A DNA stretch of 64,000 nt, taken from the NCBI GenBank assembly GCA_017519865.1, contig JAFWRQ010000030.1, forward strand, positions 78,573-142,572, written 5' to 3'. Of this stretch, positions 47,696-64,000 are shown piece by piece. Below the pieces are notes generated by a model. That model saw only the letters and a program-made list of their open reading frames with translations. It made no database searches and was not told the DNA's origin. A program made the position numbers and the translations under genes. Within the stretch, counting starts at the first letter, position 1. The number at the start of each line of letters is the position of its first letter. The DNA is from Bacteroidales bacterium. Its GTDB lineage: Bacteria; Bacteroidota; Bacteroidia; Bacteroidales; UBA932.

Positions 47696-49084
47696 CTATA
47701 TCCCTTTCAGGTTATATAAATCCGTCGGGTAGTCGCCGTTGAAACAGGCGGTGCAAAGGCCGGAGCGGCCGGAAGCTTTGAAAAGGGCCTGTTCGGAGAG
47801 ATAGTGAAGGGAGTCTGCACCTATGTACCGGCAGATTTCCTCTACAGTGTGGTCCGAGCCGATCAGCTGCTCTTTCGTGCCGGTGTCGATGCCATAGAAA
47901 CAGGGCCAGGCGTATTTCGGACTGGCGATGAGCATATGGACCTCCGTGACTCCTGCATCGCGAAGCATCCTTACGATCTGCCTTGATGTAGTCCCGCGGA
48001 CTATGGAATCATCTATGACGGCTACACGTTTGCCTTTCACTATGCTCCGTACGGGGGACAGTTTCATCTTTACCCCGATGTCACGCATCGACTGGGCCGG
48101 CTGGATGAAGGTCCTGGCTACGTACATATTCTTCAGCAATCCCATTTCCAAAGGCAGACGGGCGGCTTCGGCGTAGCCTATGGCCGCGCTCATGCTCGAC
48201 TCGGGAACGCTTATGACGATATCTGCCGGGACGGGGTGTTCCTCATACAGGATCTTCCCCGTCCGTTTGCGGAATACGTGTACTCCGCATCCTTCGATAA
48301 TGCTGTCAGGCCGGGCGAAATAGATATACTCCATTGCGCACATCCGCCTGCCTGAACATTGCGAATGACTGAAACTCTTCAGCCCGTCAGGGCCAATGCT
48401 GATGAGTTCCCCGGGTTCGACGTCCCTGATGAATTCCGCTCTTAGGGCATCCAGGGCGCAGGTTTCGCTGGCGACGACATAACCTCTGCCAAGCCGTCCT
48501 ATCGACAGTGGACGGAATCCATATTTGTCCCTGCACGCGTATAGGATACCATCGGCCAGGACGACGGTGGAAAAAGCCCCGTCAAGCTGGTTGGCGGCAG
48601 CCATGATTCTGGTTTTCCAGTCTCCGGTTTTCTGTTCTCCTATGAGATGTGCGAACAGTTCGCTGTCAGAAGTGGAATGGAACAGGTGCCCCATCGTTTC
48701 GAGACGTCCCTTGATATTGGCGGCATTGACTATGTTCCCGTTATGGGCAAGTGCGAAGCAACCTGCCCGGCAGGACATCCTGAACGGCTGGATGTTCTCC
48801 ATTCCGCCCACCTCGGTCGTAGGATACCTTACGTGGCCTATGAGGGTGTTGCCTGAAAGGCCGGCCAAAGCGGTCTCCGAGAAAACGTCCTTGACCAGAC
48901 CTTCGCCTTTGTGGACACGAATTGCCCCGTCTTGGTCATATACCGCGATTCCGCAGGCCTGCTGTCCTCTGTGCTGCAGCGCCTGCAGCGCCAGGAAGGC
49001 CTGTTCCGAGGCATTCTTTACTCCGTAGATTCCCAGTACTCCGCACTCCTCGTGCAGCTCGTCAAAGCAATGATTACAATTCAT
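47696..49084 (-). CDS. purF: Amidophosphoribosyltransferase
   Basis: This 462-residue enzyme makes phosphoribosylamine from PRPP and glutamine, the first step of purine synthesis. A 13-residue propeptide precedes the nucleophile Cys14 (EEC-GVLGIYG). The glutaminase domain shows GHVRYPTTE and LAHNGNI; the transferase domain has the PRPP loop VIDDSIVRGTT. The four cysteines needed for a Bacillus-type iron-sulfur cluster seem present (CAMEYIYF near 248 and C-terminal SGLCTACF). It overlaps dapL by 11 bp and is the last gene of the nitrogen operon. Confidence 0.95.
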   Translation of the reverse strand: MNCNHCFDELHEECGVLGIYGVKNASEQAFLALQALQHRGQQACGIAVYDQDGAIRVHKGEGLVKDVFSETALAGLSGNTLIGHVRYPTTEVGGMENIQPFRMSCRAGCFALAHNGNIVNAANIKGRLETMGHLFHSTSDSELFAHLIGEQKTGDWKTRIMAAANQLDGAFSTVVLADGILYACRDKYGFRPLSIGRLGRGYVVASETCALDALRAEFIRDVEPGELISIGPDGLKSFSHSQCSGRRMCAMEYIYFARPDSIIEGCGVHVFRKRTGKILYEEHPVPADIVISVPESSMSAAIGYAEAARLPLEMGLLKNMYVARTFIQPAQSMRDIGVKMKLSPVRSIVKGKRVAVIDDSIVRGTTSRQIVRMLRDAGVTEVHMLIASPKYAWPCFYGIDTGTKEQLIGSDHTVEEICRYIGADSLHYLSEQALFKASGRSGLCTACFNGDYPTDLYNLKGI

Positions 49085-50279
49085 TTATGCAATTATACAG
49101 CCTGTCCATAGCTTCAATTGTCCTGGCTTTGTCCGAAAAGGAGGTAAGCCTGAAATATCCGCGCCCGGCTTTGCCGAAACCCGATCCCGGAGTGATTACG
49201 ATTCCTGCCTTTCTCAACAGGACATCGAAGAACTCCCAGTCATCCATACCGTCAGGCGTCCGGGCCCAGACGTACGGGGCGTTCTCGCCGCCGGAGGCGT
49301 GCAGCCCCGCCCGTTCCAGTCCCTTGCGAATGACCGCAGCGTTGCCGAGATAGTATCGGATGCTTTCGCGGGTCTGCTCCCGTCCTTCCGGCGAATATAC
49401 TGCATATGCTCCGCGCTGCGATACATATGAAGCACCGTTGAACTTGCATCCCTGCCTGCGCTCCCATAGCGCATTGAAGGACATGTCCTTGCCGTCCCGG
49501 TTCTTGCCACGGAGTTCCTTCGGGATGACGGTGTAGCCGCAGCGGATGCCCGTGAAACCTGCCGTCTTGGAGAAACTCCGGAATTCCATCGCACATTGCC
49601 TGGCACCTTCAATCTCATAGATGGAGTGCGGGACTTCCGGGTCCTGTATGAAAGCCTCGTAGGCAGAATCGTACAGGATCAGCGATCCGTTTCGCAGGGC
49701 ATAGTCCACCCATTCCTCCAACTTGGCATGGGATATCACGGCGCCGGTAGGATTGTTCGGATAGCAAAGATAGACAATATCAAGCTTTTCATCGGGAATT
49801 TCTCCCGTAAAACCGTCGTCTTCAGTACAGGGGATGAACTTGATCCGCCTGCTGTCAATGACATTCGTGTCCACATATACGGGATAGACGGGGTCGATGA
49901 TACCTACCGTGTTCCCCTCCGAAAACAAGTCCAGGATGTTTCCCAGGTCGCTTTTCGCTCCATCGCTGATGAAGACTTCCTCCGGATCGACGGTGATGCC
50001 CCGGGAGGCGTAGTCCCCCTGGACGACGGCTTCCCGGAGCCAGCCGTAACCATGCTCCGGGCCGTAGCCGTGGAACCTCTCCTGCACGGAGAGGTCATCC
50101 ACTGCTTCGTGCATCGCCCGGACGACTGCCGGGGCTATAGGAAGTGTCACATCCCCTATGCCCATCCTGATTATGTCCGTTTCGGGAGAAGCCTCGTGGA
50201 ACGCGGCGACCCTGCGGGCGACTTCTTGGAAAAGATACCGGTGCTCCAGCCGGCAGAATCCTTCTTTAATCTGCACCAT
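49074..50279 (-). CDS. dapL: LL-diaminopimelate aminotransferase
   Basis: This 401-residue PLP enzyme converts tetrahydrodipicolinate directly to LL-diaminopimelate using glutamate. GIGDVTLPIAP, CYPNNPTGAVI and the PLP-lysine motif SFSKTAGFTGIRCGYTVIP are visible. It feeds lysine and peptidoglycan. It lies 3 bp after dapF, giving the last two diaminopimelate steps together, and overlaps purF by 11 bp. Confidence 0.95.
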   Translation of the reverse strand: MVQIKEGFCRLEHRYLFQEVARRVAAFHEASPETDIIRMGIGDVTLPIAPAVVRAMHEAVDDLSVQERFHGYGPEHGYGWLREAVVQGDYASRGITVDPEEVFISDGAKSDLGNILDLFSEGNTVGIIDPVYPVYVDTNVIDSRRIKFIPCTEDDGFTGEIPDEKLDIVYLCYPNNPTGAVISHAKLEEWVDYALRNGSLILYDSAYEAFIQDPEVPHSIYEIEGARQCAMEFRSFSKTAGFTGIRCGYTVIPKELRGKNRDGKDMSFNALWERRQGCKFNGASYVSQRGAYAVYSPEGREQTRESIRYYLGNAAVIRKGLERAGLHASGGENAPYVWARTPDGMDDWEFFDVLLRKAGIVITPGSGFGKAGRGYFRLTSFSDKARTIEAMDRLYNCINEL

Positions 50280-50282
50280 ATC

Positions 50283-51134
50283 TCAGTCCTCCATTTCAAT
50301 AGTCCCTTCGAAAACACTTGTTGCCGTACCTGTCATACGTATATCTTTCGTGATGGGGTCCCACGATACGTCCAGGGATCCTCCGTCCATTATGACGGTG
50401 CATCCATCAGGTCTCGTATAGCCGGCCATGGCGGCAGCAACGGCCGTGGCGCAGGCGCCTGTGCCGCAGGCCTGCGTAATGCCGCTACCGCGCTCCCAGA
50501 CGCGCATCCTGATGTGTCTCTCGTCGATCACTTGAGCGAATTCTATGTTTGCCCTGTCAGGGAACATCAGGTCCTTCTCGAACAGTGGCCCGGCATCGGC
50601 CACAGGCGCGGTTTCGGCATCGGGTACGAAGAGGACGAGATGGGGATTGCCGACATCCACGGCAGTTCCGCGGAAACGCTTCCCGCAGGCGAAGAGGTCT
50701 CCAAGTATCCAGTTCCCGCGTTTTCCGTCGGGAAGGTTGACTTCGAGCGGAATACCCTTGCCCATCTCCACGTTAACGTCGAGAACCCGTCCTTCTTTGT
50801 CAAGACGCAATCGCAGCACCTTGATGCCGGACAGGGTCTCGAGCCTGAGTTCGGTCTTGTCGGACAGCCCCTTGTCGTGGATGTAGCGTCCGACACAGCG
50901 CGAACCGTTGCCGCACATCAGGGCCTCGGAGCCATCGGCATTGAAGATCCTCATGCTGAAATCGGCCTTGTCCGAACTGCCGATCAGGATAAGTCCGTCG
51001 GAGCCTATTCCCTTGTGCCTGTCGCTCCACTTTACAGACATTTCTGACGGGTTCTCAAGGGGATACTCCATAGTATTGACATAGATGTAGTCGTTCCCCA
51101 GTCCGTGCATCTTCGTGAATGCTATCTGTCTCAT
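50283..51134 (-). CDS. dapF: Diaminopimelate epimerase
   Basis: This 283-residue enzyme converts LL- to meso-diaminopimelate. Both catalytic cysteines are in place: MCGNGSRC and ACGTGACAT. FTKMHGLGNDYIYV starts the fold. The start overlaps the gltD stop by 4 bp and the stop lies 3 bp before dapL, firmly inside the nitrogen operon. Confidence 0.96.
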   Translation of the reverse strand: MRQIAFTKMHGLGNDYIYVNTMEYPLENPSEMSVKWSDRHKGIGSDGLILIGSSDKADFSMRIFNADGSEALMCGNGSRCVGRYIHDKGLSDKTELRLETLSGIKVLRLRLDKEGRVLDVNVEMGKGIPLEVNLPDGKRGNWILGDLFACGKRFRGTAVDVGNPHLVLFVPDAETAPVADAGPLFEKDLMFPDRANIEFAQVIDERHIRMRVWERGSGITQACGTGACATAVAAAMAGYTRPDGCTVIMDGGSLDVSWDPITKDIRMTGTATSVFEGTIEMED

Positions 51135-52480
51135 ACGCGTCCTTTTAGGTAGTCGTCAACTTCCTGTGCTACGGCCCTTCCTCCGGCCAATGCCCTCACT
51201 ACCAGGCTGGTGCCGGTCTTGGCATCGCCTGCGAGGAAGACGTTCGGCCCGAATTCCGGGTGCTGGGGCTTCAGGAAGCCCATTGCCAGCAGCACCATGT
51301 CGCACTCGATAATGCTCTTGTTGCCCGTAGGCTTCATCTGCGGACGTCCTCCGTCCGGAGCCGGAAGCCATTCGACTTCCTCGACTTCCACGCCGGCCAC
51401 ACGGCCTTTACCGTCATCGAGGAAGCGGCACGAGGACAGGCTCCACCGCCGGTCGCAGCCTTCTTCGTGACTCGTGGAAGTCCTGAGGATCATAGGCCAC
51501 GCCGGCCATGGTGTTGCGGGGTTGTACCCCTTCGGCGGTTTGGGCATGATCTCGATTTGGGTGACATTCCTGCAGCCCTGCCGGTGACACGTACCGATGC
51601 AGTCGCTGCCAGTATCGCCTCCGCCGATCACCAGGACGGTCCGTCCCTTGGCAGAGACCGTCTCTTCCTTGCTGAACTGCTCACCCGCCAGCCTGCGGTT
51701 CTGCTGGGTAAGCAGGTCCAGGGCGAAGTATATGCCCTTGAGTTCCCTTCCGGGAATGGGAAGGTCGCGTGCGGTCGGCGTCCCCGTGGAAATGACATAT
51801 GCGTCAAATCCTTCCGGGAGATTTTCAGTATCCACCGTCACTCCATAACGGAAGGTGATGCCTTCCTGCTCCAGTACGGATATTCTCCTGTCAATGACAT
51901 ACTTGTCCAACTTGAAGTTGGGTATGCCGTAACGGACGAGGCCTCCTGCGGAGGGCATCTTTTCAAGTACGGTGACATCATATCCGCGCTTGTTGAGCTG
52001 GACGGCCGCGGAGAGTCCGGCGGGGCCGGCTCCTACCACTGCGACCTTCTTCCCGTTACGGGAATAGGAATGCGGGTGGACATATCCTTCGCGGAATGCG
52101 CGCTCTATGATCGAGCATTCGTTCTCGCGGACGGTGACGGGTGCTTCCATGGCGTGGTTGAGCACGCAACTCTTCTCGCATAGCGCGGGACAGATGCGCC
52201 CTGTGAATTCCGGAAAGTCATTGGTCTGCGACAGGAGCTTGTACGCAAGCTCCCACTTGCCTTTGCAGGCGGCGTCCTGCCATTCGGGCTGGCGGTTGCC
52301 TAGAGGGCAGGCCCAATGGCAGAATGGTATGCCGCAGTCCATGCACCGGGAAGCCTGGAGCATGCGGTCGCCCTCGTTAAGGGTCTGCTCCACTTCTCCG
52401 AAATTGGAGACTCTTTCAAATACCGGCCTGTGGCCGGCTTCCTGACGGGGAATGGTCAGGAATGCATTCGGGTTTCCCAT
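51131..52480 (-). CDS. gltD: Glutamate synthase small subunit
   Basis: This 449-residue subunit takes electrons from NAD(P)H to the large subunit through FAD and 4Fe-4S clusters. The N-terminal cysteine clusters CMDCGIPFCHWACP and CPALCEKSC are visible, then the FAD GAGPAGLSAAVQL and the NAD(P)H GGGDTGSDC dinucleotide motifs. Length is standard. It follows gltB by 12 bp and overlaps dapF by 4 bp. Confidence 0.95.
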   Translation of the reverse strand: MGNPNAFLTIPRQEAGHRPVFERVSNFGEVEQTLNEGDRMLQASRCMDCGIPFCHWACPLGNRQPEWQDAACKGKWELAYKLLSQTNDFPEFTGRICPALCEKSCVLNHAMEAPVTVRENECSIIERAFREGYVHPHSYSRNGKKVAVVGAGPAGLSAAVQLNKRGYDVTVLEKMPSAGGLVRYGIPNFKLDKYVIDRRISVLEQEGITFRYGVTVDTENLPEGFDAYVISTGTPTARDLPIPGRELKGIYFALDLLTQQNRRLAGEQFSKEETVSAKGRTVLVIGGGDTGSDCIGTCHRQGCRNVTQIEIMPKPPKGYNPATPWPAWPMILRTSTSHEEGCDRRWSLSSCRFLDDGKGRVAGVEVEEVEWLPAPDGGRPQMKPTGNKSIIECDMVLLAMGFLKPQHPEFGPNVFLAGDAKTGTSLVVRALAGGRAVAQEVDDYLKGRV

Positions 52481-52492
52481 ATTCCGTGTCCG

Positions 52493-55400
52493 TTAATAAT
52501 CCATTTGTACATTGTCAATCTTTTCGTTAAGCTTGCGCAGTTGCTCCTCGTGGAGGACGCGCTTGTATTCGATAGGAGTGACCTGGATGAAGTCCTCGGC
52601 GTATTCTGACCAGTGTTCCAGCATCCTGGCGGCAAGGGCCGAGCCAGTCAGCCTGCGGTGCTCCGCTATTAGGCACTTGAGCTCTTCCATTCTGGTTTTC
52701 TCCTCAATCAGTCCAAGCTCTATCATCTCCATGTTGCAATAGTAGTCGAAATTGTGGTCGGGGTCCCAGACATATGCGAGACCGCCGGACATACCGGCTG
52801 CGAAGTTGCGCCCGGTGGGTCCGAGGACCACTACACGTCCGCCGGTCATATATTCGCAGCAATGGTCTCCGACTCCTTCCACTACGGCAATGGCGCCGGA
52901 GTTGCGGACGGCGAAGCGTTCGCCGGCGCGGCCGGCCATGAACAGCGAGCCGGACGTCGCGCCGTAGAGCAGCGTATTTCCGGCAATCGTGTTTTCAGAA
53001 GCGTCGAAATGGGCGTCAGGGTCGGGCCGGACTATGATGCGGCCTCCGGAAAGGCCCTTGCCCAGATAGTCGTTCGTTTCGCCCTCGAGCCTGAAGCTGA
53101 CTCCCTTCATCAGAAAGGCGCCGAAACTCTGTCCGGCCGACCCGTGGAAAGTGACATTCACCGTTCCGTCAGGCAATCCATCCTCACCGTAGCGTTCCGC
53201 TATGCGGCCGGACAGTAGGGCACCGACTGTTCGGTCGGTGTTAGCGATGCCATAGTGCAGCGATACGCTGCGACCGCTCTCCAAGGCGGGCTTTGCTGCG
53301 GCAAGTATATGCTTGTCCAGAACGTCTCCAAGACTGTTCCTATACTCGGGATTTGCGTGGAGGTGACTGTCTCCTTCTTGGAAAAGGAGACGGCTGAAAT
53401 CCAACGATGCCGCTTTCGTGCCGACCTTTGCAACGTCCACGGTGATAAGGTCCGTACGCCCGACGATGTCCTCGAATTTGCGGAATCCCATGTCAGCGAG
53501 ATACTCTCGGACTTCCTGTGCAAGAAAACGGTAATAATTGACCAAGGCGTCGCTGCATCCGCGGTATAGTTTCAGCAGCTGTGGATTGCGGGTCGCGATG
53601 CCCATAGGGCAGGAATTGGCGTGACACTTTCGCATCAGGACGCAGCCGAGCACGATGAGTTGAGCCGTGCCGAAGCCGAATTCGTCCGCTCCCAAAAGGG
53701 CCATGGCGACGACGTCACGGCCGGTCTTCAGTTGCCCGTCCGTCTGGAGCGTCACCCTGTCACGGAGACCGTTACGGATCAATGTCTGCCTGGTTTCGGA
53801 AAGCCCGATTTCTGGCGAAACGCCCGCATAGCGTATCGAGGACATCGGAGAAGCGCCGGTGCCTCCTTCCGCACCGGAAATGACTATCAAGTCGGCTTTG
53901 GCCTTGGCTACACCTGCGGCAACTGTCCCTACTCCGCTCTCAGCGACGAGTTTCACGCTGATGCGGGCATCGGGGTTGACATTGCGAAGGTCGAAGATCA
54001 GCTGCGCCAGGTCCTCGATTGAATAGATGTCGTGGTGGGGAGGAGGAGAGATGAGGGAGATTCCAGGGATGGAGTGGCGCGTGCGGGCGATTATGCCGTC
54101 GACCTTGTATCCCGGTAGCTGACCGCCTTCTCCGGGCTTTGCACCCTGGGCGATCTTTATCTGTATCTCCTTCGCGTTGACGAGGTATTCGGTAGTTACG
54201 CCGAAGCGTCCGGAAGCAACCTGCTTTATAGCGCTGTTCTTGGGCGAATGGAAGCGTTCGCGGTCCTCTCCACCTTCACCGGTGTTGCTGCGCGAACCGA
54301 GGCGGTTCAGGGCTTCCGCTATGGCCTCGTGGGCGCCCTGGCTGATGGCACCGAAGGACATTGCGGCTCCCACGAAGCGCTTTACTATCTCCTCTACGGG
54401 CTCGACTTCATCGATTGGGATGGGATTGTGCTTGAAACTGAAGAAATCCCTGAGGAACATGGGCTCCCTATGATTGTCCACGATGGAGGTGAACTCCTTG
54501 AATTTCCTATAGTCGCCGGAACGGGTAGCCAGCTGCAGCGCAGCGATCGCTTCGGGTGTCCACGAGTGGGGAATGCCATCCTTCCTGAAGGAGTACTGCC
54601 CGATATGTGGAAGGATGTTGGACACTTCGCAGTCGAATCCCTGCGCATGCATGCTGGCGGCGTCCTGTGCTATCCTGGACAGGGAGATGCCCCCGACAGT
54701 AGAGGATGGGGTGCCGAAATACTCCCTGAGGAGGTCGGCACCCAGTCCGATGCTTTCGAATATCTTTGCTCCGCGATAGGATCGTATCGTGCTGATACCC
54801 ATCTTGCTGAGAATCTTCTTCAGGCCCTTGTCAACCGCCTTGATATAGTTCTTCCTTGCAGTCTCGAAATCGAGCTGAAGGTCTCCTTTCTTTACCAGGT
54901 CGTCGATGATGGCGAACGCCATATACGGATTGACTGCGCTGGCTCCGTAACCGAGCAGAAGTGCGGAGTGCATAGTCTCCCTTATCTCTCCGCTCTCCAC
55001 GATCAAGGCTGTCCGGACGCGCTTCTGGACCTTGACGAGGTAATGGTGGATGGCGCTAACGGCCAGTAGCGAAGGTATGGCAGCGTGTGTTTCGTCAAGG
55101 TCCCTGTCGCTGAGGATGATGTAGTTGATTCCCTGGTCAACGGAGGCTTCTGCCTCGCGGCAAAGGCTGTCCAGGGCTTCTTTCATCCCGACTTCTCCCT
55201 TGGACTTCTCGAAGATGATGGGAAGTACCTCAGTGTTGAAACCCTTGTAGCGTATATGGCAGAGAATGTCAAGCTCATCATTCGTCAGGACGGGCTGGGG
55301 GAGCCTTACCATCTTGCAGTGGTCTTCGTCAGGGGTAAGAATGTTCATTCCGACTGCTCCGATATACTCCGTGAGGGACATCACCAGATCCTCGCGTATG

Positions 55401-56941
55401 GGGTCGATGGGAGGATTTGTGACCTGGGCGAACTGCTGGCGGAAATAGTTGAAAAGCAATTGCGGGCGCTCGGACAATGCTGCCAGCTGCGTGTCGTTAC
55501 CCATGGATGAGATCGGCTCTGAAGCAGAACTGCACATCGGGATGATGATGCGCTCGATGTCCTCGCGGGTATAATCGAATGCCCTGAGCCTCTTCTCGAA
55601 GTCCGGTACGGAGTTTTCCGCTTTACGGCCGCTGCGAAGCTTTGCCAGTTCGATGCGACCGTTCGAAAGCCAACGGCCATAGTCATGACCGTCAGCGAGA
55701 GCCTGTTTGATTTCGTCGTTGCGGTAGATGCGGCCGGTCTGGGTGTCGACCATGAGGATCTTTCCCGGCTGGAGAGACCCCTTTTCGACAACGGAACCTG
55801 CTGCGACGGGAAGGCATCCGGCTTCGGAGGCGATTGCCAGGAGGCCCTTGTCCGTGATAAAGTAACGCGACGGGCGGAGACCGTTTCGGTCCAGCATGCC
55901 TCCGGCATAACGTCCGTCGGAAAAGAGGATGGCCGCGGGGCCGTCCCACGGTTCCATAAGTATGGAGTGGTACTCGTAGAAGGCTTTCAGATCGCTTCCT
56001 ATGGGATTCTTCTCGTTGAACGACTCAGGAATCATCATCGACATCACGTGCGGCAGTTCCATTCCCGAGTGGTAGAAGAACTCCATAGTGTTGTCAAAAG
56101 ATGCGCTGTCGCTCATACCCGGCTGAATGATGGGAGAGATGTCGCGGACATCTCCCAATGCCTTGGACGAAAGCACGCCCTCGCGGGCCTCCATCCATCC
56201 GCGGTTGCCGCGGATGGTATTGATTTCTCCGTTGTGGGCCATCATCCTGAACGGCTGGGCAAGGGACCATGCCGGGAAAGTGTTCGTGCTGAAACGGGAA
56301 TGGACCAGGGCAAGACCCGAGGTGAAGAACGGGCTGGACAGGTCCGGATAATACTCCTTCAGTTGCGTGGATGTCAGCATACCTTTGTATATCAGCACCC
56401 TGCCGGAGAGGGAAACGACATAGAAGTCCTTGTCGGAAATCCTCTGTTCAACGTGCTTGCGTATGCGGTACAGCCTTGTCTCCAGTCCTTCCGGCGCGGA
56501 GTCGGCGCCGGTGATGAAGACCTGGACGACGTGCGGCTCGCAGGCGCTCGCAGTCTCGCCCAGGATATCACTGTTCACCGGAACCTCCCTGACATTGGAA
56601 AGGACAAGTCCCTCCCGCTGCGTCTCTTCCCTGAGGATTCCTAAATAGCTCTCACCTGCCTTACCCTCCTTCGGAAGGAAGATCAGGCCGGTGCCGTACC
56701 TGCCCCTCTCCGGAACAGGAATGCCCTGGAGCAGGATGAATTCGTGGGGGATCTGCACCATGATGCCGGCGCCATCGCCGGTTCTGGCGTCGGCGCCCTC
56801 GGCTCCACGGTGCTTCAGGTTCTCCAGCATGGTAATGGCATCGGACACCAGCTGGTGGGTCTTGTTGCCGTTCAGGTCGGCAATCAATCCCACTCCGCAG
56901 GCATCGTGCTCGTATGCCGGATCGTATAAGGTTCTTTCCAT
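52493..56941 (-). CDS. gltB: Glutamate synthase large subunit
   Basis: This 1482-residue subunit makes two glutamates from glutamine and 2-oxoglutarate. The glutaminase nucleophile is Cys15 (HDACGVG) after a short propeptide. The FMN domain shows PPHHDIYSIEDLAQLI and SGAEGGTGASP, with an iron-sulfur segment (CHANSCPMGIAT). A C-terminal GXGXG beta-helix domain is present. The start at 56941 was preferred because it leaves the normal propeptide; the frame extends 20 residues upstream without a family match. It lies 4 bp after the glutamine synthetase gene. Confidence 0.95.
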   Translation of the reverse strand: MERTLYDPAYEHDACGVGLIADLNGNKTHQLVSDAITMLENLKHRGAEGADARTGDGAGIMVQIPHEFILLQGIPVPERGRYGTGLIFLPKEGKAGESYLGILREETQREGLVLSNVREVPVNSDILGETASACEPHVVQVFITGADSAPEGLETRLYRIRKHVEQRISDKDFYVVSLSGRVLIYKGMLTSTQLKEYYPDLSSPFFTSGLALVHSRFSTNTFPAWSLAQPFRMMAHNGEINTIRGNRGWMEAREGVLSSKALGDVRDISPIIQPGMSDSASFDNTMEFFYHSGMELPHVMSMMIPESFNEKNPIGSDLKAFYEYHSILMEPWDGPAAILFSDGRYAGGMLDRNGLRPSRYFITDKGLLAIASEAGCLPVAAGSVVEKGSLQPGKILMVDTQTGRIYRNDEIKQALADGHDYGRWLSNGRIELAKLRSGRKAENSVPDFEKRLRAFDYTREDIERIIIPMCSSASEPISSMGNDTQLAALSERPQLLFNYFRQQFAQVTNPPIDPIREDLVMSLTEYIGAVGMNILTPDEDHCKMVRLPQPVLTNDELDILCHIRYKGFNTEVLPIIFEKSKGEVGMKEALDSLCREAEASVDQGINYIILSDRDLDETHAAIPSLLAVSAIHHYLVKVQKRVRTALIVESGEIRETMHSALLLGYGASAVNPYMAFAIIDDLVKKGDLQLDFETARKNYIKAVDKGLKKILSKMGISTIRSYRGAKIFESIGLGADLLREYFGTPSSTVGGISLSRIAQDAASMHAQGFDCEVSNILPHIGQYSFRKDGIPHSWTPEAIAALQLATRSGDYRKFKEFTSIVDNHREPMFLRDFFSFKHNPIPIDEVEPVEEIVKRFVGAAMSFGAISQGAHEAIAEALNRLGSRSNTGEGGEDRERFHSPKNSAIKQVASGRFGVTTEYLVNAKEIQIKIAQGAKPGEGGQLPGYKVDGIIARTRHSIPGISLISPPPHHDIYSIEDLAQLIFDLRNVNPDARISVKLVAESGVGTVAAGVAKAKADLIVISGAEGGTGASPMSSIRYAGVSPEIGLSETRQTLIRNGLRDRVTLQTDGQLKTGRDVVAMALLGADEFGFGTAQLIVLGCVLMRKCHANSCPMGIATRNPQLLKLYRGCSDALVNYYRFLAQEVREYLADMGFRKFEDIVGRTDLITVDVAKVGTKAASLDFSRLLFQEGDSHLHANPEYRNSLGDVLDKHILAAAKPALESGRSVSLHYGIANTDRTVGALLSGRIAERYGEDGLPDGTVNVTFHGSAGQSFGAFLMKGVSFRLEGETNDYLGKGLSGGRIIVRPDPDAHFDASENTIAGNTLLYGATSGSLFMAGRAGERFAVRNSGAIAVVEGVGDHCCEYMTGGRVVVLGPTGRNFAAGMSGGLAYVWDPDHNFDYYCNMEMIELGLIEEKTRMEELKCLIAEHRRLTGSALAARMLEHWSEYAEDFIQVTPIEYKRVLHEEQLRKLNEKIDNVQMDY

Positions 56942-56945
56942 AGTC

Positions 56946-59132
56946 TTAGTTGATGAAAAGGAGTTCGCGGTACTTGGGAAGCGGCCACATGTCGTTGTCA
57001 ACGATCTCTTCCAGCTTGTCGATGGGCCTGCGGATCGCGAACAGGCTTTCGGCTATCTCGTGATAGGCCTTTGCCTTCTCATATTCGTTCTCGATGGTGT
57101 TGGCGCTCTTCCTGGCTTCGATCATCTTTGCCACGCCCTTCTGGAGTTGATCTATCCTGTGAGAGATCTTTTCGATGAGGGTGATGGTCACGGCCGCTTT
57201 TTCCTGATAGGAATCGGGGAAGGCTTCCTTCATCATCTTCAGGTTTTTGAGCAGGATGTTCTGATATGCGAGCGCGGCGGGGATGACGTGATTGATGGCC
57301 ATCCTGCCCATCACGCGGGACTCTATCTGCACCTTCTTGGTGTACATCTCCCATTTGACCTCGTTCCTGGCTTCGAGTTCCTTCGGGGAGTAGATGCCCA
57401 GCGAGGTGAACATTTCGACGGATTCAGGCTTAGTGAAGGATTTGATCATCTCCGGAACGCTGGTCTCGGTGTCGAGTCCGCGCCTTGCTGCCTCCTCCTT
57501 CCACTCGTCGGTGTAGCCGTTGCCGTCGAAGCAGACGACGTCGATGATGGAGCTGATGATCGGTTTGAGGACGTCCATTACGGCGACTTCAAGAGCCTTG
57601 CCGGAGGCGAGCTCCTTGTCAAGGGCTTTCTTGAAGATGAGTAGCTGCTCGGCGACGGCGCCGCTGAGCGCAGTCATAGCGCCGGCGCAGTTGGCGGAGG
57701 AACCTACAGCACGGAACTCGAATCGGTTGCCTGTGAAAGCGAACGGCGAGGTACGGTTGCGGTCAGTGTTGTCCACGAAGATCTCTGGGATTTCCACGAT
57801 GCCGACAGATGTCTCCTTCTTGCCGGCAATCTCGATGGGGGTGCCGGAAGGCAGCTCGAGGAGTTTGTGGAGCACTTCAGTCATGGTACGGCCAAGGAAG
57901 GCGGAGACGATTGCCGGTGGAGCCTCGTTGGCACCGAGACGGTGCGCGTTGGTGGCGCTGGCTATGCTGGCCTTCAGCAGGGCGTTATGTTTCTGGACCG
58001 CGGCAAGGATGTTGACGAAGAATGTGACGAACTGGAGGTTTCCTGCAGGATCCTTGCCGGGAGCAAGCAGCAGGGTGCCGGTGTCAGTACCCAGGGACCA
58101 GTTGTTGTGCTTGCCGGAACCGTTGATGCCGTCGAAAGGCTTCTCGTGCAGGAGCACTACGAAGCCGTGCTTGCGCGCGACCTTGTTCATAACGTTCATT
58201 ATCATCTGGTTCTGGTCGTTGGAGAGGTTGCACTCCCCGAAGATCGGAGCAAGTTCGAACTGGTTGGGAGCGACCTCGTTGTGCCTGGTTTTCAGAGGAA
58301 TGCCGAGTTTGTAGCCCTCGTATTCGAGATCCTTCATGAATGCAGCGACGCGGGTGGGGATGGCCGCGAAGTAGTGGTCCTCGAGCTGCTGGTTCTTGGA
58401 GGAGGCGTGGCCCATTAGGGTGCGTCCGGTGAGGATGAGGTCGGGCCTTGCTGCATAGAGATCCTCATCCACGAGGAAATACTCCTGCTCCCAGCCGAGG
58501 TAGGAATGCACCTTGGATACCTTTGGGTCGAAGAGCTTGCAGATAGGTACCGCAGCGTCGGAAACGGCCTTGAGCGCTTTCTTCAGAGGTGTCTTGTAGT
58601 CCAGTGCCTCGCCGGTGTAAGAGATGAACACGGTCGGTATGCAGAGGGTGTCGTCCTGGATGAAGACAGGAGAAGTCGGGTCCCAGGCGGTGTAGCCGCG
58701 CGCCTCGAAGGTGGCGCGGATGCCGCCGCTGGGGAAGGACGAGGCGTCCGGCTCCTGCTGGATCAGGGACTTGCCGTTGAAGGACTCGATCATGCCACCC
58801 TTCCTGTCGTATTCCATCAGGGAGTCGTGTTTCTCGGCAGTCACTTCCGTAAGGGGCTGGAACCAGTGGGTGATGTGCGTAACGCCGTGTCCGAGCGCCC
58901 ACTCCTTCATGCCTTCGGCGACTTTGTCAGCCGTGGCCAGGTCGAGTGAACGGCCGTTGTCGATACAGTCGACCAAGGCCTCGTAGGTCTTGATATCAAG
59001 ATACTTGCGCATCTTTTCGCGGTTGAACACCAGCTCTCCGAAATAGGCCGAAGGTCTCTCAGCGGGAGCAGTCACGTCCAAAGCCCTCTTCTTGAAGGCA
59101 TCCTGGACAACATCGAATCTAAGCTTGCTCAT
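56946..59132 (-). CDS. glnN: Glutamine synthetase type III
   Basis: This 728-residue enzyme makes glutamine from glutamate, ammonia and ATP. The length and motifs (GWEQEYFLVD, TRHNEVAPNQFELAPIF, HEKPFDGINGSGKHNNWSLGT and NRTSPFAFTGNRFEFRAVGSSAN) identify type III, the main form in Bacteroidales. Placement between asnB and gltB makes a complete GS-GOGAT module in one operon. It lies 20 bp after asnB. Confidence 0.95.
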   Translation of the reverse strand: MSKLRFDVVQDAFKKRALDVTAPAERPSAYFGELVFNREKMRKYLDIKTYEALVDCIDNGRSLDLATADKVAEGMKEWALGHGVTHITHWFQPLTEVTAEKHDSLMEYDRKGGMIESFNGKSLIQQEPDASSFPSGGIRATFEARGYTAWDPTSPVFIQDDTLCIPTVFISYTGEALDYKTPLKKALKAVSDAAVPICKLFDPKVSKVHSYLGWEQEYFLVDEDLYAARPDLILTGRTLMGHASSKNQQLEDHYFAAIPTRVAAFMKDLEYEGYKLGIPLKTRHNEVAPNQFELAPIFGECNLSNDQNQMIMNVMNKVARKHGFVVLLHEKPFDGINGSGKHNNWSLGTDTGTLLLAPGKDPAGNLQFVTFFVNILAAVQKHNALLKASIASATNAHRLGANEAPPAIVSAFLGRTMTEVLHKLLELPSGTPIEIAGKKETSVGIVEIPEIFVDNTDRNRTSPFAFTGNRFEFRAVGSSANCAGAMTALSGAVAEQLLIFKKALDKELASGKALEVAVMDVLKPIISSIIDVVCFDGNGYTDEWKEEAARRGLDTETSVPEMIKSFTKPESVEMFTSLGIYSPKELEARNEVKWEMYTKKVQIESRVMGRMAINHVIPAALAYQNILLKNLKMMKEAFPDSYQEKAAVTITLIEKISHRIDQLQKGVAKMIEARKSANTIENEYEKAKAYHEIAESLFAIRRPIDKLEEIVDNDMWPLPKYRELLFIN

Positions 59133-59152: not shown

Positions 59153-60820
59153 TTAATATGCTTGGATATGGACTCCGGCGACCGCGCGGCCGCTGGGGTC
59201 GTTGAGGTTCTTGAAAGCGGCGTCCCATTCCAGAGCGATGGCAGTGGAACAGGCTACACTGGCTTCGCTGGGCACCGAGAGTGCAGCGGAGTCGCTCGGA
59301 AACAGTTCGGAGAAAATGCTGCGGTAGTAATACTCCTCCTTGTTCTGAGGGGTATGGATGGGGAAGCGGTTGGCGGCATGCGCCATCTGCTCGTCGCTTA
59401 CGGCCTCGGACGTGACGCGCTTGAGCGTGTCGATCCAGGAGTAGCCGACGCCGTCGGAGAACTGCTCCTTCTGCCTCCAGGCTATCTCAGAAGGTATCAG
59501 GTCTGCACACGCCTCGCGGACGATCTTCTTTTCAATTGTCTGCCCGGGGCACATCTTCGCTGCTGGATTCAAGCGCATGGCTACGTCCAGGAACTCCTTG
59601 TCCAGGAACGGTACGCGTCCTTCGACGCCCCAAGCCGAAAGGCTCTTGTTGGCTCTCAGGCAGTCGTAGAGATGGAGCTTGGAGAGTTTTCTGACCGTTT
59701 CCTCGTGGAAGGCGCGTGCATCTGGCGCTTTGTGGAAATAAAGGTAGCCGCCGAAGACTTCATCGGCCCCTTCTCCTGAGAGGACCATCTTGATGCCCAT
59801 CGACTTGATGACGCGTGCCAGAAGATACATCGGCGTCGATGCGCGTATGGTCGTGACGTCGTAAGTCTCAGTGTAATAGATGACGTCACGTATCGCGTCC
59901 AGACCTTCCTGTATTGTATAGTTGATCTCGTGGTGTACGGTACCGATGTGCTCGGCGACCAGGCGCGCCTTGTCAAGGTCCGGTGCACCTTTCAGCCCTA
60001 CGGCGAAAGAGTGCAGCCGCGGCCACCAGGCACGCGTCCTTGAATCGTCCTCGATGCGCATTGCGCTAAACTTCTCGGCAATTGCAGAAATGACGGAAGA
60101 GTCGAGCCCGCCGGAGAGCAGCACGCCGTAAGGGACGTCGGACATCAGCTGGCGCTTCACCGCGGACTCCAGCGCAGCACGGAGTTGTGCCGGGTCGGCG
60201 GGATTGTCCTTGACATTTTCATATCCGGTCCAGTCGCGCTTATACCAGCGCTTCATTCCGGGCTCGCGGCTCCAGTAGAAATGGCCGGGCAGGAAGGGCT
60301 CGTACCGTTCGCACTGCCCTTCCAGCGCCTTCAGCTCGCTGGCTGCATAGACCTTTCCGTCAGCATCGTCAAAGCCGATATACAAAGGAATGACTCCGAT
60401 GGGGTCGCGGGCGATCAGGAAAGCATCTTTCTCTGCGTCATAGAGCGCAAATGCAAAAATCCCGTTCAGCTCCTCCAGGAAATCCGGCCCCTTGTCGCGG
60501 TACAAGGCGAGGATGACCTCACAATCGCTGCCCGTACGGAAATCATATTTCCCGGAGTAGCGCCGGCGGATCTCCTGATGGTTGTAGATCTCACCGTTCA
60601 CGGCCAGCACCTGCTTCCCGTCAGGGGAGAGGAGCGGCTGCCCGCCGGACTCAGGGTCCACGATGCTCAGGCGCTCGTGGGCCAAGACGGCGCTCCCGCC
60701 GCACCAGATGCCGCTCCAGTCCGGCCCTCTGTGCCGAAGTTTGCGGCTCATTCCGAGAGCCTTCCGGCGCATGGCGTCGGACTGTTCGCGAATGTTGAAA
60801 ATACATGAGATCCCACACAT
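59153..60820 (-). CDS. asnB: Asparagine synthase B (glutamine-hydrolysing)
   Basis: This 555-residue enzyme makes asparagine from aspartate, ATP and glutamine. Cys2 of MCGISC is the glutaminase nucleophile after Met removal. RHRGPDWSG, VNGEIYNH and the synthetase P-loop LLSGGLDSSV are present. It is the first structural gene of the nitrogen operon and lies 120 nt downstream of an Asn/Gln-rich leader frame and 60 nt downstream of an intrinsic terminator, so its transcription is probably attenuated. Confidence 0.96.
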   Translation of the reverse strand: MCGISCIFNIREQSDAMRRKALGMSRKLRHRGPDWSGIWCGGSAVLAHERLSIVDPESGGQPLLSPDGKQVLAVNGEIYNHQEIRRRYSGKYDFRTGSDCEVILALYRDKGPDFLEELNGIFAFALYDAEKDAFLIARDPIGVIPLYIGFDDADGKVYAASELKALEGQCERYEPFLPGHFYWSREPGMKRWYKRDWTGYENVKDNPADPAQLRAALESAVKRQLMSDVPYGVLLSGGLDSSVISAIAEKFSAMRIEDDSRTRAWWPRLHSFAVGLKGAPDLDKARLVAEHIGTVHHEINYTIQEGLDAIRDVIYYTETYDVTTIRASTPMYLLARVIKSMGIKMVLSGEGADEVFGGYLYFHKAPDARAFHEETVRKLSKLHLYDCLRANKSLSAWGVEGRVPFLDKEFLDVAMRLNPAAKMCPGQTIEKKIVREACADLIPSEIAWRQKEQFSDGVGYSWIDTLKRVTSEAVSDEQMAHAANRFPIHTPQNKEEYYYRSIFSELFPSDSAALSVPSEASVACSTAIALEWDAAFKNLNDPSGRAVAGVHIQAY

Positions 60821-60880: not shown

Positions 60881-60910
60881 AAAAAAAAGACCGGCTCTCT
60901 CGAACCGGTC
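60881..60910 (-). terminator. Attenuator terminator in the asnB leader
   Basis: On the minus strand GACCGGTT (60910-60903) pairs with AGCCGGTC (60896-60889) in an 8-bp stem with one G-U pair and a 6-base loop. Eight Ts follow (60888-60881). It lies between the leader frame and asnB, so it can stop the whole operon. Confidence 0.9.
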
Positions 60911-60953
60911 CCCTATTATGCTTATACCACAAAAATCACCTTATCCGACCGGC
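60904..60953 (-). promoter_or_regulatory. Putative antiterminator pairing
   Basis: GCCGGTC (60953-60947), in codons 32-34 of the leader frame, copies the 3' arm of the terminator. It can pair over 7 bp (one G-U) with GACCGGT (60910-60904), the 5' arm. The two structures are mutually exclusive. A ribosome at the leader stop (60943-60941) would cover the first segment; one stalled at codons 25-26 would leave it free. Confidence 0.75.
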
Positions 60954-61048
60954 AAGACAAGATACAGCTTATTATTCTGGGAATTCTGTGAATTCTCAGA
61001 GACAAGCTGCTGCTTGAAATTGGCGGATATGATGAAAAGGTTTGTCAT
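60941..61048 (-). CDS. Asn/Gln-rich leader peptide of the nitrogen operon
   Basis: The frame encodes 35 residues from ATG at 61048 to TAA at 60943-60941. It holds six Asn (3, 10, 19, 22, 25, 26) and four Gln (13, 14, 21, 24), with the run NSQNSQNN at 19-26. The predicted transcript start (about 61064) lies 16 nt upstream. Composition, position before a terminator and the overlap of its end with the antiterminator segment mark it as an attenuation leader rather than a functional protein. It is too short for the usual gene callers. Confidence 0.85.
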   Translation of the reverse strand: MTNLFIISANFKQQLVSENSQNSQNNKLYLVLPVG

Positions 61049-61067
61049 TTCGATTGTTCTTCTGTTA

Positions 61068-61099
61068 CAAATTTAGTCAGCGGAAATCTAAAATGCAAG
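61068..61099 (-). promoter_or_regulatory. Promoter of the asnB operon leader
   Basis: Minus strand CTTG (61099-61096), 20 bases, then TAAATTTG (61075-61068). The -7 box is perfect; the -33 box has one mismatch. It would start transcripts just before the leader frame. Confidence 0.75.
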
Positions 61100-61272: not shown

Positions 61273-63366
61273 TTATTCCGAAATCATCTCAAGATCCGAT
61301 ATCCACAGCGCCACCTTCGCATCCGAAGGCATCCTGAGGTCCCCTCTCGGAGAAAGGGACACCGAACCGACCTTCGGTCCGTCGGGAAGGCAGGAACGCT
61401 TGAACTGCTGGCTGAAGAACCTCCAGTAGAACTTCTTGAGCCACTTTTGGATTGTCTCCTTGTCATAGTCGTTGGACTTTCCTTCCGGTCCCACGAAAAC
61501 TGATGCGTCCGTCCTCTTTCCGAGGAAGGCCTTCTTCGCGAGGAAGTATATCTTCGAAGGAGAGTATCCGAAACGGAACATATTGTATAGGAAGAAGTCG
61601 TGGAGTTCGTAAGGTCCGACGAGATCCTCTGTCTTCTGCTTTATGTTACCCTTCTCGTCAGCCGGGGTGAGTTCTGGGCTGATGGGGGTGTCGACGACAT
61701 CGAGGAGGATTTCTCGGGCGGTTCTGTCCCCGTCCCCAGCCTCACCGAAGTTGTTCTCCGCCGCCCACTTCACGAGGTACTTCACGAGTGTCTTTGGGAT
61801 TGAGGCGTTCACTCCGTACATTGACATATGGTCTCCGTTGTATGTGGCCCAACCGAGAGCCAGTTCCGAAAGATCTCCCGTTCCGACGACAAGACCGTTT
61901 TCCTTGTTTGCCACATCCATCAGAATCTGGGTCCTTTCCCTCGCCTGGCTGTTTTCGTAGGTGATGTCATGGACCGAAAGGTCATGTCCTATGTCCTCGA
62001 AATGCTGCTTGACGGCAGGGACTATGGAAATCTCCCTCTGGGTGACACCGAGTACAGTCATAAGGTCGACTGCGTTGCTGTATGTACGGTTAGTAGTACC
62101 GAAGCCGGGCATCGTTATTCCGATGATGCCTTTGCGGTCATACCCCAGACCGTCAAAGGCCATCACCGTTACAAGAAGCGCCAGGGTGCTGTCCAATCCT
62201 CCGGATATTCCGATGACGGCTGTCTTGCAGCCTATGTGCTCGAGCCTGGACATGAGGCCGAGGACCTGGATCGAAGTAATCTCCTTGGCCCTGCGGTCAA
62301 TTTCGGCGGGATCTCCGCCGGGAACGAATGGATGTGGTTCTATACTCCGGATAAGTTCTTCGTCGAATGAAGTCGAAGCGGCTTTGCCGAGGTCTACGAT
62401 GCCGTAGCGGCGGCGCATGTCGGAGGAAGTCCTTCCGTCGGGGATTATGGCAGAGAATGTCGTCTCCCTCTGACGCAGGATGGAGAGTTTCTCCATGTCG
62501 AGATCCGCGAGGATCATCTGGGTCTTCGTGGAGAACCTTTCGCTTTCGGCGAGGAAGGAACCGTTCTCGCAGATCATCGATGATCCCGCGAAAACCATAT
62601 CCTGGGTGGATTCACCGTAGGAAGCCGAACAGTAGATGTACCCACTTATGGTCCTTGCTGACTGGTTCGCTACGAGAGCCTTTCGGTAGACGTGCTTTAG
62701 GAGCACCTCGTTGCTTGCGGAAGGGTTGACGATGATTCTGGCTCCGCCCAGGGCGTGGAACGACGAAGGAGGGATGGGCATCCACAGGTCCTCGCAGATT
62801 TCCACGGCGAAGGTCGCCTCCCCGATCGAGAAAATCTGGTTCGGGGAAATCGTCGTCCTGAATCCGGCGTACTTCATCGTGCAGGGGGTACCTTCACGGT
62901 AGTAGTCCTTGCCGTCGTCATGGAAGTTACCGGTGGAGACGTTTCCGGGTGAGAGGAAATCCGCCCCTGAAGAGAACCACCTCGATTCATAGAACTCCCC
63001 GTAGTTGGGTACGTACACCTTGGGGACAAGTCCCCGGAGCATCCCGTTCCGGAAGACGGCGGCGCAGTTATAAAGGCGGTCCAGATGCCTAACCGGCACT
63101 CCGACCACTACCGTCACTTCCTTGGCCCTTGTATGGGCCCTTATCGCTGCTATCGCCTTCTCCGCCTCGGCGATGAGGATATCCTGGCTGAAAAGGTCGC
63201 CGCAGGTGTATCCTGTGACGCAGAGTTCGGGAAAGACCAGAAGCGACACCTTCCTGTTTTCAGCGACGGTAATAGCGGAAAGGATTTCCGCTGTATTGAA
63301 TGCAATGTCGGCCACCTTCACACGAGGTGAACATGCTGCCACTCTTATGAATCCGTAATTTTCCAT
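61273..63366 (-). CDS. nadE: Glutamine-dependent NAD+ synthase
   Basis: This 697-residue enzyme amidates nicotinic acid adenine dinucleotide with glutamine nitrogen. The N-terminal nitrilase-type amidase has Glu47 (FPELCVTGYTCGD), Lys in VPKVYVPNYGEFYE and Cys in VEICEDLW. The synthetase domain has the P-loop GISGGLDSTLA (about 390) and GTGDLSELALGWATYNGDHMS. The two-domain length is standard. It lies upstream of the asnB leader on the same strand but seems to be a separate unit. Confidence 0.95.
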   Translation of the reverse strand: MENYGFIRVAACSPRVKVADIAFNTAEILSAITVAENRKVSLLVFPELCVTGYTCGDLFSQDILIAEAEKAIAAIRAHTRAKEVTVVVGVPVRHLDRLYNCAAVFRNGMLRGLVPKVYVPNYGEFYESRWFSSGADFLSPGNVSTGNFHDDGKDYYREGTPCTMKYAGFRTTISPNQIFSIGEATFAVEICEDLWMPIPPSSFHALGGARIIVNPSASNEVLLKHVYRKALVANQSARTISGYIYCSASYGESTQDMVFAGSSMICENGSFLAESERFSTKTQMILADLDMEKLSILRQRETTFSAIIPDGRTSSDMRRRYGIVDLGKAASTSFDEELIRSIEPHPFVPGGDPAEIDRRAKEITSIQVLGLMSRLEHIGCKTAVIGISGGLDSTLALLVTVMAFDGLGYDRKGIIGITMPGFGTTNRTYSNAVDLMTVLGVTQREISIVPAVKQHFEDIGHDLSVHDITYENSQARERTQILMDVANKENGLVVGTGDLSELALGWATYNGDHMSMYGVNASIPKTLVKYLVKWAAENNFGEAGDGDRTAREILLDVVDTPISPELTPADEKGNIKQKTEDLVGPYELHDFFLYNMFRFGYSPSKIYFLAKKAFLGKRTDASVFVGPEGKSNDYDKETIQKWLKKFYWRFFSQQFKRSCLPDGPKVGSVSLSPRGDLRMPSDAKVALWISDLEMISE

Positions 63367-63415: not shown

Positions 63416-64000
63416 TTACGGTTGTAACGTGATGCCAAATACCAAGAAGGCAGACTTGGAATAAGGGTTGGCCTCCACCCGGGCGAAAACCGGAATGGAG
63501 AAAGTATCCGTAACCTGGATGTCCTTCGCCGCCGTCAATGCGAGGTTGGTGACGGCGAATCTGTCCGTACCGTAGAAACCGGTGGCAAACGGGACCGCAC
63601 CGGCCGTGGCCGTCCAATCGACATCGCCGAGCTTAAACGGAACGCTGATTTCCAAATAGCTGCTGTAAGCGAGTTTTCCGGTAGCCTCCACCAGGTCGTT
63701 GCCTGCAAAGTTGGTGTACCACTGCAGCGACGCAAAGCCGAAGTCATAACCGGCATTCGCCTCGAACACATGGTTCGTATAGTCGGCGGCGTACTTGAAG
63801 TAGTGGTTCAGCGGGTCCAGACCCGCATTGAACCAATAATCCGTCACGCCGATATTGAAACCTCCGACCGAGTAAGCAAGCGTCAGGTCCAGTTCCTTCG
63901 TATCGGCCGGGTCGGACAGGCCCACCGAGCCCCAGGCCGAGAGGCTCAAGCCCTTGTAGCTGACGCCGAGCGCCGGCTGCATCGACACGTCGCCCAATTC
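63416..64000 (-). CDS. Outer-membrane beta-barrel-like protein, C-terminal part
   Basis: The frame is open at the right window edge; about 195 residues are visible up to the stop at 63416. The sequence alternates short amphipathic strands (LSAWGSVGLSD, LTLAYSVGGFNIGVTDYWF, ANAGYDFGFASLQWYTNF) and ends FLVFGITLQP, a typical barrel end. I recognise no specific family. The signal peptide would lie outside the window. No terminator is obvious in the 49-bp gap to nadE. Confidence 0.6.
   Translation of the reverse strand, partial: ELGDVSMQPALGVSYKGLSLSAWGSVGLSDPADTKELDLTLAYSVGGFNIGVTDYWFNAGLDPLNHYFKYAADYTNHVFEANAGYDFGFASLQWYTNFAGNDLVEATGKLAYSSYLEISVPFKLGDVDWTATAGAVPFATGFYGTDRFAVTNLALTAAKDIQVTDTFSIPVFARVEANPYSKSAFLVFGITLQP

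Follow-up and report, generated by a model that had tools for sequence, protein, structure and literature searches.

We find that the asparagine synthase gene of a Bacteroidales bacterium is preceded by a leader that is very probably a ribosome-mediated transcription attenuator, reading the supply of both asparagine and glutamine. The parts of such an attenuator are present, they recur in relatives, and a segment near the leader's stop codon covaries with one arm of the terminator. The leader lies on the minus strand of the 64,000-nucleotide stretch of DNA analyzed here (the window). Its elements are as follows.

61068-61098, minus strand: promoter-like site, with TTG at 61098-61096 and TAAATTTG at 61075-61068
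60941-61048, minus strand: leader peptide frame of 35 codons, with six Asn and four Gln, reading MTNLFIISANFKQQLVSENSQNSQNNKLYLVLPVG
61022-61035, minus strand: segment 1, which is predicted to pair with the leader's stop-codon region and would protect segment 2, according to the minimum free energy (MFE) fold of the untranslated leader
60971-60994, minus strand: Asn/Gln cluster NSQNSQNN, codons 19-26, the candidate stall site
60947-60953, minus strand: segment 2, GCCGGTC, codons 32-34, the putative antiterminator partner, from pooled permutation tests and the stalled-ribosome fold
60902-60910, minus strand: segment 3, GACCGGTTC, the 5' arm of the terminator
60889-60897, minus strand: segment 4, GAGCCGGTC, the 3' arm of the terminator
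60881-60888, minus strand: tract of eight Ts, read from the sequence

A preliminary description of this DNA had reported a -7 box, the 35-codon frame with its Asn and Gln content and NSQNSQNN cluster, and a 7-base repeat of the terminator 3' arm within codons 32-34. All of these are present; GCCGGTC at 60953-60947 is an exact copy of part of that arm. The terminator was described as an 8-bp stem followed by eight Ts. The T-tract is as described, but the stem (GACCGGTTC-GAGA-GAGCCGGTC, 60910-60889) has nine pairs, including one G-U, and can be extended to 13 through A-U and G-U pairs. With its T-tract (60910-60881), it is the only terminator-like site found between 58000 and 64000. The spacing between TTG and TAAATTTG is that of a Bacteroidetes promoter. 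When the window was scanned for leaders specific to other amino acids, no candidates emerged, but this result carries little weight, as the strict terminator cut-off also dropped the present leader.

Behind the terminator, the following genes are tightly spaced and in this order.

59153-60820, minus strand: asnB, glutamine-hydrolysing asparagine synthase (NCBIfam PRK09431, 894 bits)
56946-59132, minus strand: glutamine synthetase type III, GSIII (Pfam GSIII_N, 253 bits, Gln-synt_C-ter and Gln-synt_C)
52493-57001, minus strand: gltB, glutamate synthase large subunit (NCBIfam PRK11750, 1720 bits)
51131-52480, minus strand: gltD, glutamate synthase small subunit (NCBIfam TIGR01317, 486 bits)
50283-51134, minus strand: dapF (NCBIfam TIGR00652)
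49074-50279, minus strand: dapL aminotransferase (NCBIfam TIGR03542)
47696-49084, minus strand: purF, glutamine amidotransferase (NCBIfam TIGR01134)

Judged by this spacing, dapF, dapL, and purF are probably part of the asnB operon. The NCBIfam glutamine synthetase models scored the window's GSIII below their cut-offs only, and the real start of gltB may lie further downstream than that of the listed frame.

In the mechanism that we propose, RNA polymerase would start near 61064, with a ribosome translating the leader frame behind it. A shortage of Asn-tRNA or Gln-tRNA would halt the ribosome within codons 19-26, leaving segment 2 (60953-60947) free to pair with the 5' arm before the 3' arm exists. 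The terminator would then fail to form in time, and transcription would continue through asnB, glutamine synthetase, and GOGAT into the remaining downstream genes. With asparagine and glutamine plentiful, the ribosome would reach the stop codon and cover segment 2, and the terminator would form. It would form in the absence of translation too, with segment 1 holding segment 2. We infer from sequence that this leader is translated, that ribosomes stall on it, and that it responds to starvation, as well as its kinetics and the ends of its transcripts.

The two amino acids are likely to be reported separately. GlnRS is encoded in the genome itself (697 bits), and AsnRS scored above its cut-off in 12 of 12 relatives, although it was not found in the genome's own assembly, which is 75% complete. 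Asparagine and glutamine should therefore be charged directly onto their tRNAs, and tRNA charging, as far as gene content can tell, should report each of them.

Leaders of this type recur upstream of GSIII genes. We searched 398 family genomes for GSIII and took 100 stretches down the similarity list, with some skipped, adding the window's own and two less similar ones (G144 and G022); leaders were disregarded in this choice. Among the resulting 98 distinct upstream regions of 300 nt each, 21 contain a short frame in which a run of ten residues includes six or more Asn/Gln, against 0.05 expected from dinucleotide shuffles. Looser length limits raise the count to 24. Leaders occur in 23 of the 60 GSIII genes that start at least 100 nt from the upstream same-strand frame and in one of the other 38. 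At the six-of-ten level, 74 of the 98 regions have no leader; half of these (37/74) lie closely behind another frame. Examples of the encoded peptides are MAYFVYNQQQNQQSQAQQVPGVSVCV (L192), MFTFLNNKQNNNNQNQQALIFSV (L193), and MNVFSQQQNQQQSQSRTLGHFAC (L168). Other residue pairs were also counted in the same 98 regions: Gln/Ser clusters occur in 23 and Arg/Ser clusters in 20, but for the latter 10.95 were expected. In our view, Gln/Ser is as frequent as Asn/Gln because the same Gln-rich frames contain Ser.

Upstream of asnB, the picture is more scattered. At E 1e-150, asnB was matched in 37 of 149 family genomes, and for named genomes the best 80 of at least 588 confirmed matches were kept. A leader directly before asnB in all relatives is rejected: among the loci of the best 80 of at least 588 confirmed matches, only L069 was found to have one. 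L002, L045, and L075 also have a leader, but further upstream of asnB. The preliminary description had named relatives that keep asnB and the terminator but have no short frame or no Asn/Gln enrichment as evidence against an attenuator. In most relatives' loci, no leader was found directly 5' of asnB, but there the neighbors of asnB mostly differ from those in the window, a frequent order being gltB-gltD-asnB. Furthermore, three loci with asnB before GSIII (L148, L149, and L152) do carry an Asn/Gln frame and a hairpin ahead of asnB (e.g., MTGFYWNNQRNNGKNQNQNQVLELLCPIHQS). These three favor an attenuator; they were passed over by our terminator filter, and the scans thus undercount leaders. In G022, from the same genus, no frame above five Asn/Gln in ten precedes asnB or gltB.

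The first scan, which covered 110 loci and called for a terminator in addition to a short frame reaching six Asn/Gln in ten, returned six leaders with terminators from five loci (the window, L002, L045, L069, and two in L075). None came from loci titled Bacteroides, Phocaeicola, Paraprevotella, or Prevotella; L069, with its leader MAKGLVFVTNNNQNNNQNQNNNQVLMITSFGQRES before asnB, carries the title Prevotellaceae. The L045 leader precedes amtB-asnB-GSIII, and the interval separating it from amtB contains a PII-like start. The L002 leader (L002:1904-2085) heads carAB-pyrG-amtB-asnB-GSIII-gltB-gltD, in which asnB is 95% identical to that of the window. This cluster combines glutamine-making and glutamine-using genes. 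L075 has two different leaders in one gene cluster (L075:8241-8425 and L075:12239-12411): the leader before amtB has 15 Asn and zero Gln, and the second, of the Asn/Gln type, lies between asnB and GSIII.

Covariance models extended the range of genes found behind leaders. At E 0.01, model R1, built from 19 GSIII leaders, had matches in 47 of the 101 genomes of the genus but none in the own genome. Only 19 matches reached E ≤1e-5, several of them sequences used to build the model: 17 in GSIII loci, one at gltB, and one at L265, where no gene is mapped and a strong Asn/Gln frame is lacking. Model R2, built from nine asnB, amtB, and GSIII leaders, had matches in 46 of the 149 genomes of the family at E 0.01; at ≤1e-6 there were only six matches, two of them in the own genome, across five genomes. 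Led by the models, we find leaders before gltB (L261, MSFWSNNKGNKQNLNKALSRSLCR), asnB (L267, L271), PII-amtB (L268, L280, L281), and GSIII (L282, L296, and others). Across relatives, the targets are asnB, amtB (mostly as PII-amtB), GSIII, gltB, and carAB-pyrG. The genes directly behind leaders function in the synthesis, use, or import of Asn, Gln, Glu, or ammonia, or in nitrogen signaling.

The codon content of the leaders changes with the gene. The eight asnB and amtB leaders have 61 Asn versus 35 Gln codons, and the 28 GSIII leaders have 95 versus 169 (Fisher test, P = 4e-6; per-leader Mann-Whitney test, P = 0.001; the rows are related). Asn is encoded by AAT in 115 of 156 leader codons versus 140 of 875 in the GSIII genes of the same loci; in eight window genes, the figure is 43 of 175. 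Leaders favor the less used Asn codon, AAC accounting for 735 of 875 in those GSIII genes. The Asn:Gln balance bears on the possibility that the frame is translated but its codon identity is incidental, so that the leader couples transcription to the rate of translation in general. The terminator and antiterminator would indeed work with any stall at the position of the cluster. We nevertheless consider this unlikely, given the excess of Asn/Gln clusters over shuffled GSIII regions, the restriction of leader-headed genes to Asn, Gln, Glu, and ammonia metabolism or nitrogen signaling, and the shift in Asn:Gln balance between them.

We show that the segment around the stop codon is matched to the terminator of its own leader. 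Thirty-six recognized leaders were tested (3 before asnB, 5 before amtB, and 28 before GSIII). A terminator hairpin follows the frame in all 36, with interrupted T-tracts in some GSIII leaders, and the promoter motif TAnnTTTG or TAnnTTGC lies 12-75 nt 5' of the start in 28, against 2.5 expected from mononucleotide shuffles. For each leader, we took the stretch that begins at the last Asn/Gln codon of the cluster and runs no further than 18 nt beyond the stop, and compared it with the 5' arm of the same leader. The summed complementarity of segment 2 and 5' arm is 612, compared with 483 (sd 15) for shuffled stretches, and 0 of 1000 shuffles reach 612; the set was chosen by recognition and includes near-duplicates, so that its rows are not independent. 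When arms are exchanged among the 36 leaders, the sum is 564 (sd 12), and 0 of 2000 exchanges reach the own value. The arm exchange is the important control: it suggests that the segment at the stop codon tends to vary with the terminator sequence. Examples of covarying pairs are GCCGGTC with GACCGGTTC in the window, CCAGCC with GGCTGG in 11 of the 28 GSIII leaders, and TCCGGC with GGCCGGA in L166. Singly, most of the 36 leaders are non-significant, and the window's own has P = 0.09 against shuffled segments. Support thus comes from the pooled set, since the window's own match of segment and arm is not striking alone.

The geometry is also that of a stall-dependent switch, as had been proposed for the window's leader. 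Measured from the last Asn/Gln codon of the cluster, segment 2 begins 15-34 nt downstream in 34 of 36 leaders (the exceptions being L193, with 8, and the amtB leader of L075, with 47). Relative to the end of the stop codon, it lies between 25 nt before and 12 nt after in 35 of 36 (the exception being L161). Folds of the window's own leader agree. With a ribosome on codons 20-26 and the polymerase just past the 5' arm, segments 2 and 3 are predicted to fold together (-14.8 to -15.5 kcal/mol). With segment 2 free and the whole hairpin made, the MFE fold is the terminator (-25.7 to -31.9). The terminator is thus more stable once its hairpin is complete, and antitermination must be kinetic, as it likewise is in known attenuators. 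This caveat counts slightly against an attenuator here. With the ribosome at the stop codon, the own leader folds as the terminator (-21.6), and when it is untranslated, the predicted fold places segment 1 on the stop-codon region. Over the whole set, the MFE fold of the stalled state is the antiterminator in 25 of 36 leaders, whereas shuffles would give 17.2; the excess is weak, and 70% of the own leader's shuffles likewise reach five pairs in this state. With the ribosome at the stop codon, the terminator forms in all 36. Predicted folding energies by themselves support the switch weakly.

The preliminary description had proposed looking in relatives for Asn/Gln-rich frames and for compensatory changes in both pairings. 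The frames recur and segment 2 covaries with the 5' arm, but RNAalifold on 19 GSIII leaders found the terminator as the only structure, and the consensus structure of the asnB/amtB leader group is likewise the terminator only. These consensus results also speak against an RNA that senses a metabolite or tRNA directly, such as a glutamine riboswitch or a T-box-like element, and leaves the frame unused: no shared structure other than the terminator is predicted, yet the Asn/Gln frame recurs. The own leader does fold unusually well compared with shuffles (z = -5.7), and GSIII leaders have common conserved bases around the stop codon, as direct sensing might predict. Searched with Rfam covariance models at the gathering score, however, the whole window matched only a tRNA, and there was no match to the glutamine riboswitch (glnA RNA), the T-box, or Bacteroid-trp (RF01692). 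We regard direct sensing as very unlikely.

In some GSIII leaders (L171:8508-8670, L174:11792-11953, and similar ones), CCAGCC stands immediately 3' of the leader stop, a layout that differs from that of the window's leader. By eye, a small hairpin with the stem GTGC...GCAC encloses it in its loop; RNAalifold does not predict this hairpin in these leaders.

Three leaders occur in the own genome, of which one is weak. The second (L308:1986-2099, on contig C7 of G000) lies before PII-amtB and reads MIDIFTITANFKQQLVSENSQNSQNNNAVSCLAGRIR. The third (L202, MANGFQKKQKRSQAQSWQGVCRRIHPVG) lies before a second GSIII and is weaker, being Gln-rich with four Asn/Gln in ten. The asnB and PII-amtB leaders have near-identical Asn/Gln cores at the DNA level, and the RNA behind the cluster is also common to both. 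A one-base difference after codon 26 shifts the frame into a nearby stop, while the RNA around segment 2 is nearly unchanged; thus, what has been kept is the RNA and not the end of the peptide. By their sequences, the switch may have been copied recently from one operon to the other. The starts of the PII-amtB and asnB leaders are 4.9 kb apart on one contig in the close relative G304. The altered peptide end argues against a functional Asn/Gln-rich small protein whose ratio to asnB is set by the terminator. Although the closest relative retains the window's leader frame (L001, L141), peptides vary freely outside the cluster, with little in common between groups beyond it, and such a protein is highly improbable. 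That an ordinary terminator of the nadE transcript met a random short frame before asnB is scarcely credible: nadE does lie upstream on the same strand, ending at 61273, but leaders recur and covary across many loci, in some of which the leader is preceded by nadE in the opposite orientation or by a different gene.

The attenuator reading put forward in the preliminary description is thus supported by the Asn/Gln frames and hairpins of relatives and by the covariation of segment 2 with the 5' arm. A broader proposal is that this lineage reads its nitrogen status mainly at the ribosome, with separate leaders before PII-amtB, asnB, GSIII, gltB, and carAB-pyrG forming a regulon that needs no regulator protein of its own, the Asn:Gln mix of each leader being tuned to its product. 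This could well be so, though we lean slightly against it. Bacteria usually gauge nitrogen status by glutamine, which PII and two-component systems normally sense. If the proposal is true, separate leader switches over nitrogen genes would amount to protein-free nitrogen control, and the regulation of nitrogen assimilation in gut Bacteroidales would become directly testable.

Leader attenuators are textbook regulators for Trp, His, and the branched-chain amino acids, and trp, his, leu, thr, ilv, and phe leaders are known in Proteobacteria. The Bacteroid-trp RNA has been read as a Trp leader. For Actinobacteria, a passage in PMC1262725 gives candidate trp, trpS, leuS, ilvB, and cys leaders. The leader described here resembles those of Proteobacteria and Actinobacteria in its clustered codons for the regulated amino acid, its terminator before the first gene, and its near-stop segment able to pair with the terminator 5' arm. 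Unlike them, it would sense Asn and Gln, and within one lineage individual copies serve the genes for ammonium uptake, Gln, Asn, Glu, and carbamoyl phosphate. Leader-peptide attenuation has also been proposed within the same phylum, for the Bacteroid-trp RNA (RF01692, listed in PMC2864571) and from hints of leader peptides ahead of amino-acid operons in Flavobacterium psychrophilum (a passage in PMC9723704); the former names Trp, not Asn or Gln, and the latter passage names no amino acid. In B. thetaiotaomicron, long 5' regions contain short frames reminiscent of leader peptides (a passage in PMC7366714). The glnA RNA of cyanobacteria, a glutamine riboswitch (passages in PMC2864571 and PMC8632094), similarly places glutamine synthetase, GOGAT, PII, and ammonium transporter genes under RNA control. 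It binds glutamine directly, whereas the window's leader has a short frame and no match to the glnA family.

The preliminary description knew of no Asn/Gln attenuator in Bacteroidetes. This holds for the literature that we searched, mainly papers open without subscription, in which no Asn or Gln leader is described; one may nevertheless have appeared in print. The words "asparagine" and "glutamine" are absent from the main text of PMC2965389 and from that of PMC1262725. We judge the attenuation logic to be of the known trp/his kind, and the sensing of Asn and Gln, with its use across a pathway, to be new.

Beside nadE, at the contig end, lies a 193-codon frame (63416-63997) with no Pfam match at 1e-10 and no NCBIfam match at 0.001. 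It has relatives in many Bacteroidales loci. In G304 (L141), the order is PII-amtB, then the 193-codon frame and nadE; the start of contig C7 probably adjoins the end of the window.
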